In this document: piece after piece, positions 4,429 to 55,153 of the stretch
How the letters are laid out: every line of letters starts with the position of its first letter
How positions within the stretch are numbered: the first letter of the stretch is position 1
Assembly: GCF_001580045.1 (NCBI RefSeq)
Contig: NZ_LSZP01000032.1
Location: 1 to 64,000 of the forward strand
Direction of reading: 5' to 3'
Origin: Cephaloticoccus capnophilus
GTDB taxonomy: Bacteria; Verrucomicrobiota; Verrucomicrobiia; Opitutales; Opitutaceae
Length of the DNA stretch: 64,000 nucleotides
Notes under the pieces: model-generated
What the model was told of the DNA's origin: nothing
Databases searched by the model: none
Seen by the model: only the letters and a program-made list of their open reading frames with translations
Position numbers and translations under genes: made by a program

Positions 4429-5421
4429 GTGAAAGTTCTCGTCATAGGAGGTGCCGGTTACATCGGCAGTCATTGCGTTCGCCAACTAGTGGCTGCGGGA
4501 CACTCGCCCGTAGTGCTCGACAACCTCGTCTACGGACACCGTGAGGATGTCGCCCCGGACTTGCCCTTTTACAACGCCGACCTTGGCGACGAGGCCACCG
4601 TCACTCGCATCCTGCACGACGAGCAAATCGAGCTCGTCATGCACTTTGCCGCCTTTGCCTACGTCGGCGAAAGCGTCACCGACCCGCTTAAATACTATTT
4701 TAATAACGTTGTCGCGACGCTCCACTTATTGCGCGCGATGCTCAATGCGGGCGTTAAGAAATTTGTCTTCTCCTCGACCTGCGCCACCTACGGCATCCCC
4801 GAGAAAATGCCGATTACTGAGGCTACGCCGCAGTCGCCCATCAACCCCTACGGCCAAACCAAACTCGACATCGAAAACGCGCTCAAAGCCCTCGCACACG
4901 CACACGGCCTGAGCTTCGCCTCCTTCCGCTACTTCAACGCAGCCGGAGCCGCCGAAGACGGCTCGATTGGCGAAAAACACGACCCCGAGACGCACCTCAT
5001 CCCGCTCGCCTTCGACGCGGCGAGCGGTCGCCGCCCCGCCCTACAAGTATTCGGCGACGACTACGACACGCCCGACGGCACCTGCCTACGCGACTACGTG
5101 CACGTCGACGACCTAAGCCGCGCGCACATCGCCGTCTTCCCTAAACTCACCGAGCCCGGCACCGCGCTCTTTTACAACCTCGGCACCGGCACCCCCAGCT
5201 CGGTGATCGAGGTCATCCGCGCCATTGAAAAAATCTCGGGCCGTCCCGTCCCACACACTTTTGCGCCGCGCCGTGCAGGTGACCCACCGGCCCTCTACGC
5301 CGACTCCAGCAAGGCGAAAACCGAACTCGGCTGGACGCCCAAATTTACGAGCATCGAGCCCATCGTGGAAACCGCGTGGAAATGGTATGCGAAAAACGTC
5401 TTGGGCGAAGCGTCTGCGTAA
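4429..5421 (+). CDS. galE: UDP-glucose 4-epimerase
   Basis: Interconverts UDP-glucose and UDP-galactose, supplying galactose units for surface polysaccharide and entry of galactose into metabolism. I start at the GTG at 4429, which gives MKVLVIGGAGYIGSH and 330 residues. A GTG 14 codons upstream is also open but adds residues foreign to the family. The NAD-binding GGAGYIG lies at residues 7-13, the catalytic Ser/Thr region (SSTCATYG) near 115-121, and the YxxxK pair is Tyr141 and Lys145. The later stretch FRYFNAAGA and the C-terminal region RRAGDPPALYAD are typical of GalE. It diverges from the ketosynthase gene across about 70 bp. Confidence 0.93.
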   Translation: MKVLVIGGAGYIGSHCVRQLVAAGHSPVVLDNLVYGHREDVAPDLPFYNADLGDEATVTRILHDEQIELVMHFAAFAYVGESVTDPLKYYFNNVVATLHLLRAMLNAGVKKFVFSSTCATYGIPEKMPITEATPQSPINPYGQTKLDIENALKALAHAHGLSFASFRYFNAAGAAEDGSIGEKHDPETHLIPLAFDAASGRRPALQVFGDDYDTPDGTCLRDYVHVDDLSRAHIAVFPKLTEPGTALFYNLGTGTPSSVIEVIRAIEKISGRPVPHTFAPRRAGDPPALYADSSKAKTELGWTPKFTSIEPIVETAWKWYAKNVLGEASA

Positions 5422-5527
5422 ACCAGCGGCGGCCCCGCTTTGATGCGCACGATAGTGTAATAAATCGCTTGCAATCCGGCGCACATCCTTGATTTTCGCC
5501 GCTTTCCGCTTCGGCGGAACTGGGAAC

Positions 5528-5603
5528 GGGCTCTTAGCTCAGTTGGAAGAGCGCCTCAATGGCATTGAGGAGGTCAGCGGTTCGAACCCGCTAGGGTCCA
5601 CCA
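5528..5603 (+). tRNA. tRNA-Ala (anticodon GGC)
   Basis: All four arms fold. The acceptor stem is GGGCTCT with AGGGTCC and includes two G-U pairs. The D stem is GCTC/GAGC. The anticodon stem CCTCA/TGAGG encloses ATGGCAT, giving anticodon GGC. The T arm is AGCGG-TTCGAAC-CCGCT. The 3' end is A followed by an encoded CCA (5601-5603). Confidence 0.96.
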
Positions 5604-28766: not shown

Positions 28767-31700
28767 TCACTGCCCGGCCCGAGCGGCGACGACGGCTTCA
28801 GCGATGTTTGCCGGTTGGGGGCTGTCGCCGTCGCTGTGCGGGTGGTGGCTGAAGCGCATGGAGACGATTTTCGACACGCCGCGCTCCTCCATTGTCACGC
28901 CGTAAATCGCCTGCGCCGCCGACACAGTGCGTTTGTTGTGCGTGATGATGATGAACTGAGAATTGTCCACAAACTGCTTCAAGAGCGTGGTAAAGCGGCC
29001 AATGTTTGACTCGTCGAGCGGCGCGTCGAGCTCGTCGAGCAAGCAGAAGGGCGAAGGTTTGACCATGTAGAGCGCGAAGAGCAGCGCGACCGCCGTCAGG
29101 GTCTTTTGCCCGCCCGAAAGCAGCGTAATGCTCTTGAGTTTCGTGCCGGGCGGCTGGGCCACGATTTCGATGCCGCTCTCCAAGATGTCGTCGGTCTCGA
29201 TTAGCTCCAACTCCGCCCGGCCCCCGCCAAAGAGCGTCTGGAAGGTTCCCGCGAAGTTTTTCCGAATCTGCTCAAAGGTGAGTTCAAACTGTTGGCGCGA
29301 GGTTTGGTTAATCTCGTCAATCGCGCCAAGCAGCTCGGCTTTCGCGCTGCTTAGGTCAGCCACTTGTTTTTTGAGGAAGTCGTGCCGCTCTTTGAGTTCG
29401 GCGTATTCCTCAATGGCGACGAGGTTCACCGCGCCCAAGCTACCGAGCCGCTGACGCAGTGCGTCAGCTTCGTGTTTAACCGCCGCCCAGTCGGTCGCGT
29501 CGAGCGCCGCCAAATCGGCCTCAGTCGGCTCGCCACGTTGCTCTTTTTTCTTCCGGCGGCGTTTCGGGGCAACTGCCGCAGCAGCACCGGAAGCCGCCTC
29601 GCTCCCCTCGCCTTCGGGTTCAGTCTCCGCAGCAGCCTCGCTGGACTGCGGGGTAGCCGCTTCGCTTGGCTGCCCGCCCTCGTCCTCTTCGTCGAGGTCG
29701 AGTGCTTGGATGCCTTCGGGCTCATCGTCGGCGCGCCAAAGCGAGAGCCGCCAATCCACCTCGCCGATCTCGATCGAGAACTCGCGCTGCACTTCCTCGA
29801 CCAAGAACGCGACGCGCTGCCTCAACTCAGCCAGCTTGACCTCGTGGCGGCCGAGCTCGCTCTGCGCGGCGTCGGCCTGCTGCCGCTCGCTGTGCTGCGT
29901 GCCTTCGATTTGGGAAATCACACGCTCAAGCTCCACGAGTTCCACGCGCAGTGTCTCCACCTGTTGCTGCGCAGTTGCTAGGCTGGCCTCTAAGTCCTTC
30001 GCACGCACTTGGGCCGTGGCGGCTTCTTTTTCCAAATCGGCAATCTGCGTCGTGCAAAATCCGATCTCGTCGCGACGCTGTTTAAGCACGGCCTCCAACT
30101 GCTGGCGGCGGCGCTGCATTTCGCCAAGCCCGCGATCGAGGACTTCGACCTTTTGGCGGTGCTCAGCGAGATCGAGCCGGGCTTGGGCGAGGGCCTCGCG
30201 CTTGGCGTCGCGCGACGTGCGCACTTCGAAGGAGCGGGCTTCGGCGCTTTGGATCGTGTCGCGCTGCGACTGGACTGCGGCCTCGGCTTCCGCAAGGGCG
30301 GCCTGCGCTTTTTCCCAGCGCAGCTGCGCCTCGCGGCTCGCCTGTTCGAGCGAGCCGAGCTCGCGTGTCATCCGCTCAATCCGTCGGGCCACCTCTTCGC
30401 TGGCTTGGGTCGCGCTACGCTGCTCGGCTTGGGCTTGGGCGAGTTGTTGGGTTGCCGCGAGGACGGCGGATCGCGCTTGCTCAAGCGCGGCCTCGGCTTC
30501 GGCAAGCGAGGCGGCGATTTTTTCGATAACTGCCTTTTGCGCGTCGTGCGCCTTTTGCTCTTCGGCGAGGGCCTTAGCGGTTTCGCGCAAATCGATTTCG
30601 CGCTGCACGATGCTGTTAGCGGGTTTCTTACTCGTGCCTCCGTAAATGAGGCCGCGCCGGTCAACGAGTTCGCCTTTGGCTGAGGCAACGGCAAGGAAGC
30701 TAAACTCGGGATTCGCTTTCCAGTAATCGAGAAAGGCGGGCAGGTCGTCGGTGATGTAGCAGGCCGAGAGAATGCTCAGTGCGGGGTGCCCGGGCTCGGG
30801 CGCGATGAGGGCTTCGCTCGCCGCTTTAATGCAGTCGCAGGCTGTTTTATTTTGCGAGGCGACGTCGTCTCCTCGTCCCTTAAAATCACCGACATGGAGC
30901 ACGGCGGCCCCGAGTGATTCGGCTTCGAGCTGGGCGAGGACGCGCTGGGCAGTCGCCGTATCGCTGACGCGAATCGCTTCGGCGGCTGCACCGAGCAGGG
31001 CCTCTATCGCGCGAGCGTGAGCGGGGCGGACTTCGAGCCCTTGGGTAATCGGCAGCGGCTTCTCCGCCTCGGCGTTTTGCTCGGTTTCGCCCGTTACATC
31101 AGAGCCCTGCGGCCCCTCGCCCGCGCGGGTAAACGCTTTGTTGAGTCGGCCTTGGAGGATAGCCTTCGCGCCTTCGCCAAAGCCTTCCCATTTTTCCTGC
31201 AATTGTTGAAGGAGCCGGAGTCGGGCACTGCGTTGAGCGAGTGCGCGGTCGATTTCCTGCTGCTTGCGTTGGGCTTCGCGAAACTCGCTGGTGAGCGCGG
31301 CGATCCGCTGCTGCGCGGCGGCGACGGATTCGGTCGCCTTCGTTTTTTCGGTGCTGGCTTCGGCAACGCGGGTGTCGAGTTCGGCGACGCGCTGGGTGCT
31401 TGAGGCCGATTGCTCGCGGGCTTGGGCAAGCTCGGCGGCGAGTGTCTCGTGCCGGTGTGCGCTGGTTTTTTGGTCGACTTCGTAGCGGGAGCAATCGGCG
31501 CGGAGGCGGGTGACGCTGCTCTCGGTTTGGAGAAGCGCAAACTTGGCTTGGCGGAGCTGTTCTTCGACTTTGCTTAGCTCGCCTTCGACGATGCCGAGCT
31601 CGCGGTTGCACTGTTGAAACACGTCGTCGGAAGAGCCGAGGAGCGTGAGTTGCTGCTGCTTGTCTTGCGCGCCGGTGTCGGCCTGTTCGGAGACTTCGCG

Positions 31701-32696
31701 GAGCTGCATTTCGAGCTCGCCGAGCGTGTTGCGCGAGCCGGTGAGTCGGTCTTCGAGGCCGCTGCGTTTGGTTTGCGCGAGGTTCGCTTGGTTTTCAGCC
31801 GCTTCCTTTTGCGAACGCAGATCGTAGGCGGCTTGCTGGGCGTCTTGGACGCGCTGGTTGAGTTGGGCGCGGGCGGCTTTCTTTTCGTCGAGGGAGCCTT
31901 GCTGCGATTCGAGCTCGCGGCGGCGGGTGTCCGCCTGGGCGCGAAGCGCGGTCACTTGTACGTCGAGCTCGCCGAGTGTCGCGGAAAGCGCGGCGTGTTG
32001 ATGGCTGTTCCACGCGAGCGCGAGGTGGCGCATCCGGTGGTTGAGCCGCTTGTAGCGGAGGGCTTTGGCGGCTTGACGGCGGAGGCTACCGATTTGGCGC
32101 GAAACTTCGCCCACGACGTCGGCGACACGCGAAAGATTTTGGTCGGTGAGCGCGAGCTTGCCGAGTGCTTCGCGCCGCTGCGCTTTGTATTTGGTAATGC
32201 CTGCGGCTTCCTCAAAAACGGCGCGCCGCTCCTCGGGTTTTGAGGAGAGGATTTGGTCGATTTGGCCTTGGGCCATAATCGAGTAACTCATCCGGCCCAC
32301 GCCGGTATCCATGAAGAGCTTGTGAATGTCTTTTAGGCGGCAGGCGCGGCCATTGAAGAAATACTCGCTCGCACCGTCGCGGTGGACGCGGCGCATGATC
32401 TCGATCTCGTGAAACTCGCTGCCGAGCTGTTTTTCACAGTCGGTGAGCAGCAGCGAGACTTCGCAGAGTTGGGCGGCCTTGCGCGCGTCGCTACCCTCGA
32501 AGATGACGTCCTGCATCTTGCCCCCGCGCAGTGCTTTGGCAGACTGCTCACCGAGCACCCAGCGAATCGCATCGGCGATGTTCGACTTTCCGCACCCGTT
32601 GGGGCCGACGACTGCCGTGACGCCGGGCTCGAGATTGAGGGTCGTGGGGTCGGAAAAGGACTTAAAGCCGTGCAGTTTGAGTGCCTTGAGATACAT
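28767..32696 (-). CDS. smc: chromosome segregation protein SMC
   Basis: Condensin ATPase that compacts and segregates the chromosome. 1309 residues from the ATG at 32696 (MYLKALKLHGFKSF), somewhat longer than usual (about 1190). Walker A is VVGPNGCGKSNIADAI. Long coiled coils flank a hinge (about 545-700, LEVRPAHARAIEALLGAAAE and GGTSKKPANSI). The C-terminal head carries signature LLSGGQKTLTAVALLFA and Walker B PFCLLDELDAPLD. At about residues 987-1058 lies a low-complexity insertion: an acidic Glu/Ser/Ala stretch followed by the basic run KRRRKKKEQRG. No scpA or scpB is visible nearby. Confidence 0.95.
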   Translation of the reverse strand: MYLKALKLHGFKSFSDPTTLNLEPGVTAVVGPNGCGKSNIADAIRWVLGEQSAKALRGGKMQDVIFEGSDARKAAQLCEVSLLLTDCEKQLGSEFHEIEIMRRVHRDGASEYFFNGRACRLKDIHKLFMDTGVGRMSYSIMAQGQIDQILSSKPEERRAVFEEAAGITKYKAQRREALGKLALTDQNLSRVADVVGEVSRQIGSLRRQAAKALRYKRLNHRMRHLALAWNSHQHAALSATLGELDVQVTALRAQADTRRRELESQQGSLDEKKAARAQLNQRVQDAQQAAYDLRSQKEAAENQANLAQTKRSGLEDRLTGSRNTLGELEMQLREVSEQADTGAQDKQQQLTLLGSSDDVFQQCNRELGIVEGELSKVEEQLRQAKFALLQTESSVTRLRADCSRYEVDQKTSAHRHETLAAELAQAREQSASSTQRVAELDTRVAEASTEKTKATESVAAAQQRIAALTSEFREAQRKQQEIDRALAQRSARLRLLQQLQEKWEGFGEGAKAILQGRLNKAFTRAGEGPQGSDVTGETEQNAEAEKPLPITQGLEVRPAHARAIEALLGAAAEAIRVSDTATAQRVLAQLEAESLGAAVLHVGDFKGRGDDVASQNKTACDCIKAASEALIAPEPGHPALSILSACYITDDLPAFLDYWKANPEFSFLAVASAKGELVDRRGLIYGGTSKKPANSIVQREIDLRETAKALAEEQKAHDAQKAVIEKIAASLAEAEAALEQARSAVLAATQQLAQAQAEQRSATQASEEVARRIERMTRELGSLEQASREAQLRWEKAQAALAEAEAAVQSQRDTIQSAEARSFEVRTSRDAKREALAQARLDLAEHRQKVEVLDRGLGEMQRRRQQLEAVLKQRRDEIGFCTTQIADLEKEAATAQVRAKDLEASLATAQQQVETLRVELVELERVISQIEGTQHSERQQADAAQSELGRHEVKLAELRQRVAFLVEEVQREFSIEIGEVDWRLSLWRADDEPEGIQALDLDEEDEGGQPSEAATPQSSEAAAETEPEGEGSEAASGAAAAVAPKRRRKKKEQRGEPTEADLAALDATDWAAVKHEADALRQRLGSLGAVNLVAIEEYAELKERHDFLKKQVADLSSAKAELLGAIDEINQTSRQQFELTFEQIRKNFAGTFQTLFGGGRAELELIETDDILESGIEIVAQPPGTKLKSITLLSGGQKTLTAVALLFALYMVKPSPFCLLDELDAPLDESNIGRFTTLLKQFVDNSQFIIITHNKRTVSAAQAIYGVTMEERGVSKIVSMRFSHHPHSDGDSPQPANIAEAVVAARAGQ

Positions 32697-32817
32697 GAAA
32701 AGCCGCCGAGTGTGAAACCGCGTAAGTCGCGGGCAATCTAAACTGCGGGATTTCCCCATTTTGTGGCCGTAGGTAGGTTTTAGTCAGCGCGCCACCCGCT
32801 GGCTGCGCGACACGCGC

Positions 32818-32852
32818 CTAGGGTCTGTCCCCGTTTCAAACGTGGCCGCGAC
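32818..32852 (+). repeat. dispersed GTTTCAAAC-centred repeat, copy 2
   Basis: Reads CTAGGGTCTGTCCCC, then GTTTCAAACGTGGCCGCGAC. The same order of blocks occurs, inverted and with about four differences, at 40275-40312, and a palindromic version at 25655. It lies upstream of smc. Confidence 0.75.
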
Positions 32853-32866
32853 GATACGCTTTTTTC

Positions 32867-32898
32867 CCACTACGCGTGGGGCGGCAGCGTGTCGCTGC
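32867..32898 (+). repeat. TACGCGTGGGGC repeat, copy A
   Basis: Begins CCACTACGCGTGGGG and ends in the small hairpin GCAGCG-TGT-CGCTGC. It matches 55103-55134 in 30 of 32 positions. Its first 15 bases recur inverted, with one mismatch, at 33177-33191, so the two could be the ends of one 325-bp element. Confidence 0.7.
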
Positions 32899-33040
32899 AC
32901 CCATTTACAGAGCCGCTTGGCCGCCGTGCATGCGCACAATAGCCAAGCGTTCGGTAGAAAGGAACCCAAACTTGGAGGCGGGAAGTTTACTGGTGATTTC
33001 CCCCACCTCGCCCAAGCGGGTTATCACTCTACTTTCCCCT

Positions 33041-33061
33041 CCCTGTCGCAACGCGACAGGG
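33041..33061 (+). repeat. hairpin
   Basis: Perfect nine-base arms CCCTGTCGC and GCGACAGGG around a 3-nt loop, extended by a few further C/G pairs. One of the stems inside the 32.87-33.19 kb element. Confidence 0.7.
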
Positions 33062-33073
33062 GGAGTGCTTTCA

Positions 33074-33122
33074 AATTTGGGATTTCGCTTTCGCGCGATA
33101 GCGCGTCGCGAAATCCCAAATT
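33074..33122 (+). repeat. large nested palindrome
   Basis: Perfect 15-base arms AATTTGGGATTTCGC and GCGAAATCCCAAATT enclose 19 nt that themselves contain CGCGC-GATA-GCGCG. It could form a cruciform or a long RNA stem. No T run follows, so it is not a standard terminator. Confidence 0.75.
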
Positions 33123-33130
33123 GAATGGAC

Positions 33131-33150
33131 GGCGGGCCAACGAGCCCGCC
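33131..33150 (+). repeat. hairpin with conserved loop
   Basis: Arms GGCGGGC and GCCCGCC around CAACGA. A stem with the same loop on the other strand (GCGCGGC-TCGTTG-GCCGCGC) lies at 34431-34450, and a looser relative near 38431. A small repeat family is likely. Confidence 0.6.
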
Positions 33151-33176
33151 GCCAAATAAAACAGCCTACGGCTGCG

Positions 33177-33191
33177 CCCCACGCGTAGGGG
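33177..33191 (-). repeat. TACGCGTGGGGC repeat, copy B (inverted)
   Basis: CCCCACGCGTAGGGG is the inverse of the first 15 bases of copy A with one mismatch. The flanking bases also partly match copy A in inverted orientation (T/C-rich run on one side, GC-rich hairpin on the other). Confidence 0.6.
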
Positions 33192-33301
33192 GAAAGTGCT
33201 CCGGCGAGCGTGCGCAGCACACGTGAGTGGCGAGCTTCTAGCCAGATGCCCTGCCCCTTCGGGCTGCGCTCAATCACCGCATGGCCGATTTTTTAGGTCT
33301 T

Positions 33302-34363
33302 TTACCTCTCTATTCTCCGCGCGGTTTCGCCTTCGCACCAGTAGGCGTGCAGCAAAATCGTGCGCGGGATCGCGGGGATGCCGCGTTCGCCGAGGCGCAA
33401 CTTAGTCATGCACAAGTCCACACCGGCAGCGGAAATCTCGTCGCTACTTTGATCGAGCCCAGCCCAAGGCAAGGGCACGAAAGAGCGGTCGAGCGTCGCG
33501 ACGGCCACCTCGCCGGGACAGGCTACTCCCGCTTCCTTGAGCCAGCGCAGCATCGGATTTTGGCAGCGGTGCATAATCGAGATCGTCATCACCGCGTCGA
33601 TGCGGTGTTTGCGCAGCCAAGCGATGAAGGCCGCTGCGCCCATCTCCGCCTCAATTAAGGGCGGGATGTCGCCTAAGTGCGGATGTCGCTGCTGGAGGAG
33701 ATGAAAGCCATCCACCCATGCGCCGTTGGTATCGGCGACGTGACGTTCTTCGAGCGCAAGTCCGATACGGCGGTAGCCGCGCTCTAGAAGTTTTTGGCCC
33801 GCCAGGAGCACGCCGCGACTATGGTCACTGACCACACAGTCGAGCCCCGGGCTGCGCAGCGCATGGCCCACTAAGACGCTCGAAAACTGCCCCCACGGGA
33901 AGCTCTCTACAAATGCCTTACCGGGGAAGACCTCCAACACCACTCCCTCAATGCCGCGAGCTAAGAGGATTTTGGCGAGCCGCTCGGGCTCAAAGTCCGG
34001 CACTCCGAGCGGGAATGGGGCGACGCCAAAGTTGTAACGCAGCGCGTGCGCCTTGACTGCCGGGCCGTAGCGCCCGAGCCGATTCTTGCTGCCGGCTTCC
34101 CAAAACTCGGGCTCCACGAGGTGGGCCAGTGTGCCGAGGAGCCGATCGGGCGCACGGCGGCGCACAAAGCGCATCACCTCGCCGAGGAGCGGGTTACTCT
34201 TATAGCCGAGCGCACGCGCGGCAGCCCGCACCCGAGCCTGCGTAGTGGCCCGGACATTACCGACTGTGCCCTGTCGCAAGCAGCGCGACGCCGTGGCAAG
34301 CGAGACTCCGGCCCGAGCTGCGACCTCGCGCAGCGTGGCCTTTCGTGATGGGGCAGAAAGCAT
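33302..34363 (-). CDS. LacI-family transcriptional regulator
   Basis: 353 residues. The N-terminal helix-turn-helix and hinge run from ATLREVAARAGVSLATASRCL to ARALGYKSNPLLGEVM, with the usual LacI spacing. A periplasmic-binding-protein-like sensor domain follows (VLVGHALRSPGLDCVVSDHSRGVLLAGQKLLERGYRRIGLAL). It most likely senses a sugar or oligosaccharide and controls local uptake. The gene for a very large TonB-dependent receptor lies just upstream on the same strand, which makes that receptor the obvious target. The operator is not identified. Confidence 0.9.
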   Translation of the reverse strand: MLSAPSRKATLREVAARAGVSLATASRCLRQGTVGNVRATTQARVRAAARALGYKSNPLLGEVMRFVRRRAPDRLLGTLAHLVEPEFWEAGSKNRLGRYGPAVKAHALRYNFGVAPFPLGVPDFEPERLAKILLARGIEGVVLEVFPGKAFVESFPWGQFSSVLVGHALRSPGLDCVVSDHSRGVLLAGQKLLERGYRRIGLALEERHVADTNGAWVDGFHLLQQRHPHLGDIPPLIEAEMGAAAFIAWLRKHRIDAVMTISIMHRCQNPMLRWLKEAGVACPGEVAVATLDRSFVPLPWAGLDQSSDEISAAGVDLCMTKLRLGERGIPAIPRTILLHAYWCEGETARRIER

Positions 34364-41116: not shown

Positions 41117-41171
41117 TACGACGCACTGTTATTGTTAAGGGCACTGTTCTGTCACAACTAGGGGATACGTA

Positions 41172-42773
41172 ATGGAAAATAAACAAATAATGACCATTGT
41201 GTCGGCAGATGGACTCTACTGGCTTCGTAATTTCGCCGACCTAGATTCAATTGAGGAAAAAATAGACATTTATGCTGAGTCTATTTTACCAAGGATAAAC
41301 ACTGAAGACCTACCGGAGGGATGGAGCCTGATTTTACAAGTCAACTGCCAATGCACAGACCGTATTGCAATTAATAAAAAACTTTATCAGTATCCTTCTC
41401 CAGGAGAATACGGGATTACGATTGAAATACCTATCCCCGATGCTACGCAAGCGCCTTATGGCCTGCCGCTCGACGAAGACGGAACAATTGGCCATTTTTA
41501 TCGAGCAGAAAGCGGCAGCGCCTATCTTTTGGATCCTGAGTATGACAAATATGCCAATCTTGAACAATATATTCTCGTATCAGCAATAACGGCTATAGAA
41601 CTTGGCCTCAGCAAAGGTTTCCCTTGTAACGGTAAAGAACTAAAATTTTCACGATTGATAGACACTCCCCCATTAATCCCCCCTCATAGTAAAGACGTAA
41701 TAAAACACAATCAAGTAAGGGCCCGTGTGCCGATTGAAGTCCCTGAGCTTGATAATTTTGTTGATATAGATTCAATTAACGAAAGAATAAATAACTTTCT
41801 TGAAACTATTCCATCAAGGATAAACATCGAAGACCTATGGGGGTGGAGGCTAAGTTTCCGCATTAACTCCTTCTGCACAGACCTCATTGCAATTTATAAA
41901 AAAATCTGGGTAAACGAGACAGCAAAGGAATACATAATTCCAATTGCCATCCCCCTCCCCGATAATACGCAAGCGCCTTATGGCCTGCCTCCTGGAGGAA
42001 ATGGTAGAAGTGGCGCTTTTCCTCCAGTAGAAAGCGATCACTTCTACCCTTTGGCCCCTGAGTATGATAAATATGTCAGTCTTGAACAATATATTATCGT
42101 GTCAGCAATAAAGGCGATAGACTTTGGCCTCACCAAAGGCTTCCCTCGCAATGGGAAATCAATAAAATACTCAGACTCGAGGTATAATCGCAGACCACCT
42201 CGCAGGGAATTCGTGATAAAATATAAGCAAGTAAGGGAGCGCATGCCGATCGAAGTCCCTAGGCTTGGTGATTTTGCTGACATAAGTTCAATTAACAAAA
42301 AAATAAATACTTATGTTGATTCTATTTTGCCAAGAATAAATACTGAAGTCCTATCGGGATGGAGGCTGTTTTTACTCACTAATTATGCATGTACAGACTT
42401 TATTGGAGTTGACAAAGAACTCAAGCAGTATGCTCCAGTTAGAGAATACGGAGTTTCGATTACGATCCCCATCCCCGATAATACTCAAGCGCCTTATGGC
42501 GTACTGCCTGACAAGGATGGAAAAATTGGCCATTTTCACCCAGGGAAAAGTAAATACTCCCATCTTTTGGATCCTGAGTATGATAAATATGTCAATCTTG
42601 AACAATATATTATTGCGGCGGCAATAAAGGCTATAGACTTCGGCTTCACCAAAGGCTTCAACTGTGATGGGAAGGAAATAAAATTTCAGGATTTATGGCG
42701 ACTCGCAAATTACTCTCCTCCCCATATCAACTCTCAGCGAGGAGGGGGCTTGGGGGGAAAGCGTAAAAAATAA
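41172..42773 (+). CDS. three-domain tandem-repeat protein, candidate poly-immunity protein (Imm9-like)
   Basis: 533 residues made of three copies of one domain, about 8-170, 178-350 and 358-515. Each copy has the same landmarks: an N-terminal helix (SIxxKIxxYxxSILPRINxEDL), GW, a Cys-Thr-Asp segment, IPIPDNTQAPYG, LDPEYDKY, LEQYIxxxAIKAIDFG and TKGF-x-GKEIKF. No signal peptide or membrane segment, so cytosolic. The domain resembles, from memory, the Imm9-type immunity proteins of polymorphic toxin systems, which block a toxin delivered by a rival cell. Tandem fusions of one immunity domain are known as poly-immunity proteins. No toxin gene is visible. The AT-rich composition differs from the native genes. 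Confidence 0.65.
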   Translation: MENKQIMTIVSADGLYWLRNFADLDSIEEKIDIYAESILPRINTEDLPEGWSLILQVNCQCTDRIAINKKLYQYPSPGEYGITIEIPIPDATQAPYGLPLDEDGTIGHFYRAESGSAYLLDPEYDKYANLEQYILVSAITAIELGLSKGFPCNGKELKFSRLIDTPPLIPPHSKDVIKHNQVRARVPIEVPELDNFVDIDSINERINNFLETIPSRINIEDLWGWRLSFRINSFCTDLIAIYKKIWVNETAKEYIIPIAIPLPDNTQAPYGLPPGGNGRSGAFPPVESDHFYPLAPEYDKYVSLEQYIIVSAIKAIDFGLTKGFPRNGKSIKYSDSRYNRRPPRREFVIKYKQVRERMPIEVPRLGDFADISSINKKINTYVDSILPRINTEVLSGWRLFLLTNYACTDFIGVDKELKQYAPVREYGVSITIPIPDNTQAPYGVLPDKDGKIGHFHPGKSKYSHLLDPEYDKYVNLEQYIIAAAIKAIDFGFTKGFNCDGKEIKFQDLWRLANYSPPHINSQRGGGLGGKRKK

Positions 42774-42784
42774 GGGAATCCGTA

Positions 42785-43267
42785 ATGAAACCTAAACAGA
42801 TAAGTGCCCTCATGTCGATTAAAGTCCCTGGGCTTGGCAATTCTGCTGACATGGACTCAATTGAGAAAAAAATAAATACTTATATTGAGTCTATTTCGCC
42901 GGGAATAAGCATTGAAGACCTGTCGGGGTGGAGGGTGACTTTCGACATTAATTCCTTCTGTACAGATCTTATCGCAATTTATAAAAAATTCTGGGGCTAT
43001 CCTTCAGATAGAGAATACGTAATTTCAATTGCCATCCCCCTCCCCGATAATACGCAGGCGCCTTATGGCATGCCGCCTGGCGAAAATGGTAGAAGTGGCT
43101 CTTTTCCTCCAGTAGAAAGCGACCACTTCTACCCTTTGGCCCCTGAGTATGATAAATACGCCAGTCTTGAACAATATATTATTGTGTCAGCAATAAAGGC
43201 TATAGATTTTGGCCTCACCAAAGGTTTCACTTGCGATGGGAAGGAAATAAAATTTCAAGACTTATAG
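42785..43267 (+). CDS. single-domain homologue of the repeat protein, candidate immunity protein (Imm9-like)
   Basis: 160 residues, equal to one repeat unit of the preceding gene and closest by eye to its second unit: both share FCTDLIAIYKK, IAIPLPDNTQAPYG and PPVESDHFYPLAPEYDKY. It begins 11 bp after the preceding stop. The leader AAGGGAATCCGTA before the ATG recurs almost unchanged before the next copy (AAGGCAATCCGTA), so whole genes including ribosome-binding sites were duplicated. Role inferred as for the triple-domain protein. Confidence 0.65.
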   Translation: MKPKQISALMSIKVPGLGNSADMDSIEKKINTYIESISPGISIEDLSGWRVTFDINSFCTDLIAIYKKFWGYPSDREYVISIAIPLPDNTQAPYGMPPGENGRSGSFPPVESDHFYPLAPEYDKYASLEQYIIVSAIKAIDFGLTKGFTCDGKEIKFQDL

Positions 43268-43352
43268 CGACTCGCACATTGCTCTCTCCTGATATGGCCT
43301 TTCAGCGCCGAGCAATTTTTTTGATAAATCGTAAAAAACAAGGCAATCCGTA

Positions 43353-43835
43353 ATGAAATCTGAACGCGTAATAGTCCACACCTGGGCTGAAGTCACTGCG
43401 CTTAGTGATTTCGCTGAAATGGACTCAGTTGACGAAAAAATAACTGCCTATATTGAGTCTATTTTGCCAAGAATAAACACTGAAGACCTATCGGGATGGA
43501 TCCTAGTATTCAGGGTTAATTACCGATGTGCAGAGTTCATTTCAATTGATAAAAGGTTCACTCGTGTTCCTTCAGATAGAGAATGCGGACTTACGGTCGG
43601 TATTCCCATACCCGATAATACTCAAGCGCCTTATGGCATACCGCCTGTCGAAGGTGGAAAACTTGGCTCTCGTTATCCAGCAGTCCCCAAGCACTTCCAT
43701 CTTTTGGATCCTGAGTATGATAAATATGCCAACCTTGAAAAATATATTTTTGCGGCCGCAATAAAGATTTTAGATTTCGCCTTCACCACGGGCTTCACTT
43801 GTTATAAGAAGAAAATAAAATTTCAGGATTTATAA
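43353..43835 (+). CDS. single-domain homologue of the repeat protein, candidate immunity protein (Imm9-like)
   Basis: 160 residues, fifth copy of the domain. It keeps the N-terminal SILPRINTEDLSGW, IPIPDNTQAPYGIPP and LLDPEYDKYANLEKYI, but its end has diverged (TTGFTCYKKKIKFQDL). Divergence is spread along the chain while landmarks remain, as expected if copies are selected to neutralise different toxin variants. It ends the left foreign segment; the next gene, on the other strand, has native composition. Confidence 0.65.
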   Translation: MKSERVIVHTWAEVTALSDFAEMDSVDEKITAYIESILPRINTEDLSGWILVFRVNYRCAEFISIDKRFTRVPSDRECGLTVGIPIPDNTQAPYGIPPVEGGKLGSRYPAVPKHFHLLDPEYDKYANLEKYIFAAAIKILDFAFTTGFTCYKKKIKFQDL

Positions 43836-43918
43836 TTGCTCGCGCATGACTCTCCCCTCATATAGCCTTTCGGCGATGGGGGAATTTTTTGGCGAAGCGT
43901 AGGTCACTGACTGCCGCC

Positions 43919-45482: not shown

Positions 45483-45516
45483 GCCTCGCGGGTTGAAATC
45501 GCCGATGACCTTGAGC
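45483..45516 (+). repeat. 34-bp direct repeat, left copy, flanking the restriction operon
   Basis: Starts GCCTCGCGGGTTGAAATCG and ends TTGAGC; it matches 51771-51804 in 32 of 34 positions, same orientation. Read on the minus strand it encodes the NVIDDFN-type region of an IS3 transposase. The two copies bracket hsdM-hsdS-hsdR. Confidence 0.75.
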
Positions 45517-45700
45517 GCGTTGTCCGTACCCTTAACCAGATCGTGGATTGGCGCGGCAAACCGGCCAGCATCCGGTGTGACAACGGGCCAGAATATCAGA
45601 GCCGCGCAATCACCGAGTGGGCCAACGCCAAGCAGATCAAATTGGCCTATATCCAGCCCAGACAGCCGCAACAAAATGCGTATATCGAACTGCTCGACAG
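45513..45700 (+). pseudogene. IS3-family transposase (OrfB) fragment
   Basis: About 60 codons of the DDE integrase core: ERVVRTLNQIVDWRGKP, then IRCDNGPEYQSRAI with the second catalytic Asp, WANAKQIKLAYIQPRQPQQ and NAYIE with the third acidic residue. Both ends are missing: upstream it runs into the 34-bp repeat, downstream it breaks off after NAYIE into the leader of hsdM. No start codon or inverted ends belong to it. A scar of an insertion or recombination at the left edge of the restriction operon. Confidence 0.85.
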
Positions 45701-55102: not shown

Positions 55103-55153
55103 CCACTATGCGTGGGGCAGCAGCGTGTCGCTGCCGCCCCACGCGGAGTGGAT
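55103..55153 (+). repeat. TACGCGTGGGGC repeat, copy C, inside a long hairpin
   Basis: Positions 55103-55134 match 32867-32898 in 30 of 32 places. Here the inverse arm follows directly: CCACTATGCGTGGGGC pairs with GCCCCACGCGGAGTGG (two mismatches), with the inner hairpin GCAGCG-TGT-CGCTGC. It sits between the convergent kinase and TOPRIM-like genes and may act as a terminator for both. Confidence 0.7.

Follow-up and report, generated by a model that had tools for sequence, protein, structure and literature searches.

Structure of the repeat unit between smc and the lacI-type gene

The window analyzed here, a stretch of 64,000 nucleotides, carries at positions 32867–33191 one copy of a dispersed repeat, which lies between smc (28767–32759, minus strand) and a lacI-type gene (33302–34363, minus strand), both named from their translations. 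Gene predictions were made with a simple purpose-made gene finder, and no predicted gene in the window overlaps the segment, as a first-pass annotation of the same DNA had stated. The inverted ends that it described are formed by two arms (32863–32883 and 33175–33195; 21 nt, 95% complementary), and its three strong hairpins correspond to P1, P3, and P4, the last of which has the reported 15-base perfect arms (33074–33088 and 33108–33122) around an inner stem. The proposed span held only in part: the element is real, but it has no neat ends at 32867 and 33191, and repeat modules continue over approximately 32818–32866 and 33192–33245. The features are as follows:

32818–32866 (+): outer left repeat modules (CTAGGGTCTGTCCCCGTTTCAAACG..., ...GATACGCTTTTTTC), which also flank other copies; boundary approximate
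32867–32883 (+): 5' end motif CCACTACGCGTGGGGCG, with a 4-bp stem and a TACGC loop; 287 exact sites in the genome
32884–32898 (+): 5' end hairpin GCAGCG-TGT-CGCTGC (type S), read in the sequence
32905–32957 (+): hairpin P1, with a 5' arm of type b (ACAGAGCC) and a 3' arm of type a (GTTCGGT), from the alignment and pair counts
33010–33031 (+): conserved internal block GCCCAAGCGGGTTATCACTCTA, with 98.4% column identity in 38 copies
33041–33061 (+): hairpin P3, CCCTGTCGC-AAC-GCGACAGGG, the best-conserved part in both species
33074–33122 (+): hairpin P4, with 15-bp perfect outer arms and an inner stem, from inverted-repeat and pair counts
33123–33174 (+): double-hairpin module (GGCGGGC-CAACGA-GCCCGCC, AAATAAAA, CAGCC-TAC-GGCTG), from the sequence and alignments
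33175–33195 (−): 3' end motif, an inverted copy of the 5' end, from the inverted-repeat match
33196–33245 (+): outer right repeat modules (GGCGAGCGTGCGCAGCACACGTGAGTGGCGAGC...), which also flank other copies; boundary approximate
55103–55151 (+): solo mini-element that lacks the core and has a single end hairpin between two end motifs; a 49-nt palindrome that folds as a single hairpin

The P1 hairpin of the window copy, with arms of two types, reads as a recombinant with a broken stem base, and the double-hairpin module stands in for the usual single 3' end hairpin; related modules occur in a congener. The type S stem is the 5' end stem in 30 of 40 scored copies of the host genome. The recurrence of the end sequence at 55103 was also borne out, the motif there having an inverted partner at 55137–55151 with which it forms the 49-bp palindrome, while loose matches to the motif within the window are near chance (8 versus 4.1 expected at 3 mismatches). 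Elsewhere in the window, positions 41134–43901 share long internal repeats (67–82% identical) with L060 10549–15008 and L069 11637–12854; these are probably genes for repeat-rich surface proteins.

Copy number and distribution

The window's own genome (G000) comprises 2,092,503 bases in 66 contigs, and the congener used for comparison (G006) is 98% complete, the genome sizes being 2.1 and 2.4 Mb, respectively. The genome-wide search for copies that the first-pass annotation had proposed found a core 17-mer at 134 sites in G000 (at most 2 mismatches; 67 on each strand; control 0), and the end motif at its 287 exact sites (reversed control 0). The contrary case that had been considered, a single copy without relatives, was not what we found: the repeat is a high-copy family. 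A first-look search of G000 gave 322 candidates, 40 of which were scored, and 60 core copies of at least 80 bits lie in a 445-kb sample (21% of 2.09 Mb) that was picked for its element copies. Several listed copies are at contig starts, and the actual copy number is probably higher than counted; because repeats lie at several contig ends, the short-read assembly of both genomes was probably limited.

Among 38 genomes in the nearest-relatives search, including the window's own, two matched the repeat, G000 and G006, and none of the seven other congeners searched did. A 22-mer of P3 occurred in 2 of 150 genomes of the family (137 sites in G000 and 120 in G006, at most 2 mismatches) and, across the phylum, in 2 of the 387 genomes that were sampled (124 and 60 sites, at most 1 mismatch). 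The plasmid and phage collections contained no match to the repeat, and the viral contigs no exact match of a 25-mer; these searches detect sequence-similar relatives only, in collections that may omit records close to the window. Intergenic bases resembling at least three other intergenic regions make up 28% of the G000 sample versus 15% of the G006 sample, although the genome-wide shares are probably lower. The open-access literature searched holds no description of this repeat family, which appears to be new, its broad kind (small bacterial interspersed repeats) being already known.

Exchange of whole hairpins among copies

Alignments of 30 and 38 copies gave the same order within the unit: the end motif CCACTRCGCGTGGGGCG is followed by a hairpin of 6 bp with a loop of 3 nt, then by P1, the spacer, P3, and P4, and finally by another end hairpin and the end motif in inverted form. 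P1 (approximately 23–26 bp) occurs as three unrelated stems, each self-complementary (types a, b, and c), and P4 as two; the 5' end hairpin has two stem types, and the 3' end hairpin has three or is the double-hairpin module. The copies in G006 are built likewise but from different stems. Column identity is 98.5% in P3 and 84% in P1, and the consensus of either species shows CGCCCAAAYGGGT, P3, and the base of P4 in recognizable form. Because the conserved block and P3 are best conserved and these parts are recognizable across species, some constraint on the block and P3 is indicated. In one copy (L061 5286–5558), near an apparent tRNA gene, the flanks lengthen the palindrome by approximately 25 bases on each side.

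When five module states were considered (P1, spacer type, small insert, P4, and 3' end), 27 combinations were present in 38 copies, and all four combinations of P1 types a and b with P4 types a and b were found; the units are composites of recurring modules in permutations, as BOX-type repeats are. Standard pairs account for 96.5% of P1, P3, and P4 together in 38 copies, and 18 of 49 pairs overall had changed on both sides (16 of 25 in P1, none in P3, and two in P4). The covariation score of the whole structure was 0.211, compared with 0.093 after shuffling, and no shuffle in 500 scored as high. Because the stems are swapped as blocks, the covariation counts reflect a few events tallied in many copies. 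If dispersed copies undergo homologous recombination or gene conversion with one another, whole hairpins would be swapped in this manner, and each hairpin would stay self-complementary despite the change in its sequence.

End hairpins differ within a copy in 39 of 40 copies in G000 and 23 of 24 in G006, counts that cover copies with a readable hairpin at both ends and omit 9 of 49 and 4 of 28 copies, respectively. In G000, like end stems were found in 1 of 40 copies, whereas shuffling predicts 5.7 (a count this low arose in 0.3% of shuffles), and in G006 in 1 of 24 versus 1.0 expected. An earlier count over 47 copies included 12 in which the 5' hairpin was scored and the 3' end was of type S' or T'; none of these was a like pair. 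The outer end motif shows the opposite tendency, towards complementary ends (p = 0.04). Because the copies are related, these probabilities are too small. A preference of REP dimers for unlike partners has likewise been reported (PMC3116915 and PMC3733652). In a possible but less favored account, DNA hairpin cassettes would spread and recombine by host replication and repair alone, through template switching and gene conversion, without a dedicated transposase, and would be kept viable by a rule against matching end hairpins within a copy. We also considered whether the inverted layers outside the end motif form one long transposon arm. Same-copy flanks matched no better than flanks of different copies, so the layers are separate modules.

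Genomic location and presence or absence in the sister species

The copies lie almost entirely in intergenic DNA: overlap with predicted genes is below 10% in 57 of 60 copies in G000 and 25 of 29 in G006, in DNA of which approximately three quarters codes for proteins by the same predictions. Gaps between convergent genes are enriched among those that hold copies (26 of 78 versus 68 of 379 gaps; pooled p = 0.003, with p = 0.11 in G000 alone and p = 0.01 in G006). This excess would be expected if the repeats were transcript-end or chromosome-organizing sites retained for the benefit of the host, but the avoidance of promoters yields the same bias, the positions compared are mostly unshared between the sister species, and the seven other congeners have no match; retention for host benefit therefore seems quite unlikely. 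A host function is unnecessary to explain the repeat, although effects on transcript ends are possible.

The gap between smc and the lacI-type gene, whose comparison in relatives had been suggested, is 52 bp long in G006, with the same gene order and without the element, versus 613 bp in G000. Gap contents were judged by eye at four G000 copies, three of which (the window copy, L060:2683, and L060:7215) correspond to sites without the element in G006, whereas the fourth (L063:6569) corresponds to a core fragment, indicating that some positions are common to both species; a further site (L051:8947) was dropped, its flanks matching two G006 loci at different distances. Conversely, G000 lacks a counterpart of the G006 copy at L079:10266. 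Flank identity between the two species is only approximately 65–86% at the compared sites, so that exact breakpoints are unreadable. From this presence and absence at a handful of sites we infer insertion itself, and a deletion in G006 would equally explain each of the three G000-only sites singly.

Target sites and mobilizing enzymes

The first-pass annotation had likened the segment to a miniature inverted-repeat transposable element (MITE), and as a non-autonomous mobile element it agrees with the dispersed copies, the inverted ends, and the two-way presence and absence between species. In its classical form, a MITE is a deletion derivative of a transposon, with terminal inverted repeats, that is moved in trans by a target-duplicating DDE transposase; the inverted ends, high copy number, and intergenic spread would fit such an origin. 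However, the check for target-site duplications that had been called for revealed none, immediate direct repeats averaging 0.825 versus 0.775 in shuffled flanks (40 copies). The genome-wide enzyme search covered four Pfam families (DDE_Tnp_1, rve, RVT_1, and Y1_Tnp) and found DDE_Tnp_1 transposases in neither G000 nor G006. The rve family was represented in G000 only, by one partial match inside the window and one below the cut-off, and no multi-copy insertion sequence was present in the G000 or G006 sample. The match in the window (45492–45668; domain positions 42–102 of 102, in a 124-aa open frame) looks like a transposase remnant.

In the G000 sample, 47 pairs of end sites surround a core, and 20 of the 120 sites are unpaired; of the three remaining pairs, one makes up the 49-bp mini-element at 55103, another has its sites 227 bp apart with no scored core between them, and the third encloses a gene. 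Only one inward pair among the 120 sites is 500–6000 bp apart, and what it spans is a gene of the PEP-CTERM type rather than a transposase, and no transposon with the same ends carrying a transposase was found in the 445-kb sample of the 2.09-Mb genome. Considering these results together with the missing duplications and DDE_Tnp_1, the classical MITE is an unlikely explanation. A 1.3-kb end-flanked segment of L058 looked like a composite element, but this was rejected, since the segment is better read as a gene duplication accompanied by remnants of the element. Two diverged (80%) copies of a PEP-CTERM-type gene lie beside element remnants (L058 3441–4686 and 11518–12778), and in both a C run close to where the reading frame starts could make phase variation possible.

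Retrotransposition, as of a SINE-like or group II intron-derived repeat, at which a larger number of 5'- than 3'-truncated copies had hinted, was rejected because the profile search found no RVT_1 reverse transcriptase in either genome. A further candidate mover is the REP-associated Y1 transposase (RAYT), which would mobilize the repeat as a REPIN-type element. The inverted paired hairpins, intergenic location, and high copy number would suit this, and for O. terrae, also of the Verrucomicrobia, a 2013 survey reports a high enrichment of GTAG-tagged REPs (PMC3733652). Nevertheless, G006, with 98% completeness and 120 sites, has no Y1_Tnp match, and the single match in G000 belongs to an IS605-type pair. 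In addition, the ends alternate between CCACTA and CCACTG (CCACTACGCG / CCACTGCGCG), so there is no fixed GTAG tag, and mobilization by a RAYT is highly improbable. The IS605-type pair is the only one of its kind observed (L070, approximately 4500–5600), its Y1 transposase adjoining a gene that we take to be TnpB-like. The searches of these four families thus yielded no enzyme that could move the repeat.

DNA element or RNA

Structured RNAs were the other class that the first-pass annotation had named, and the repeat could be a family of structured non-coding RNAs that serve the cell and are encoded at many loci. Strong folding, the compensatory changes in P1, and the 98% conservation of a spacer block and of P3, both of which are recognizable in G006, all favor this, as does the lean of G000 mismatches towards G-T over A-C in P3 (11:0) and P4 (36:1), although these are mostly a few inherited changes. 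In P1, by contrast, the G000 mismatches are symmetric (36 G-T and 41 A-C), and distinct events in all helices of both genomes stand at 23:12 (p = 0.09). Relative to co-directional neighbors, 17 copies have the same and 14 the opposite orientation, showing no bias. No Rfam family came near its gathering score (the best by E-value reached 21 bits, with 181.5 needed), and no clear structure common to the cores emerged from RNA consensus folding. The wholesale replacement of P1 stems is explained by DNA recombination. The RNA reading is thus unsupported by the Rfam search, the P1 mismatches, and the orientation counts, and we hold it to be very unlikely; we read the repeat as a DNA-level element for which an RNA role is possible.

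Relationship to known repeats and a model for propagation

The family resembles BOX of Streptococcus pneumoniae and S. suis, as PMC3049150 describes it, in being small and composite, with permuted modules, stem-loops, and many copies in a genome of approximately 2 Mb, and in having spread within one lineage. Unlike BOX, most modules here are near-perfect hairpins swapped whole, and the family is G+C-rich with a host of another phylum, the two being compared by description only. High-copy intergenic hairpins in inverted pairs are shared with REPIN and REP-RAYT systems (PMC3116915 and PMC3733652), but G006 has no RAYT, there is no fixed GTAG tag, and the hairpins are separated by a conserved core of approximately 220 bp; the likeness of the double-hairpin module to a CGTC-tagged repeat is limited to one end. 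The definition of MITEs in PMC3049150 fits in its non-autonomy, inverted ends, and strong secondary structure, whereas the present family shows no target-site duplication, no matching transposase was found, and it is not A+T-rich. Palindromic or double-hairpin repeats of mitochondrial genomes have also been described as mobile; these belong to organelles, and the likeness is one of description. The best reading is that the family is BOX- or REPIN-like in style, consisting of modular, non-autonomous palindromic repeats shuffled by recombination between copies.

We therefore consider it probable that these non-autonomous modular palindromic repeats multiplied in the common ancestor of the two sister species and have been turning over since, through insertion, as deduced from the site comparisons, and the exchange of hairpins by recombination. 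In this model, copies would insert into intergenic DNA via a folded single-strand or cruciform intermediate with the help of a putative enzyme. Because more than 100 copies in each genome trade whole hairpins, and at least one of the two genomes lacks the mobilizing enzymes that were searched for, G000 and G006 form a good natural setting in which to ask whether a transposase is needed at all by palindromic repeats of bacteria.
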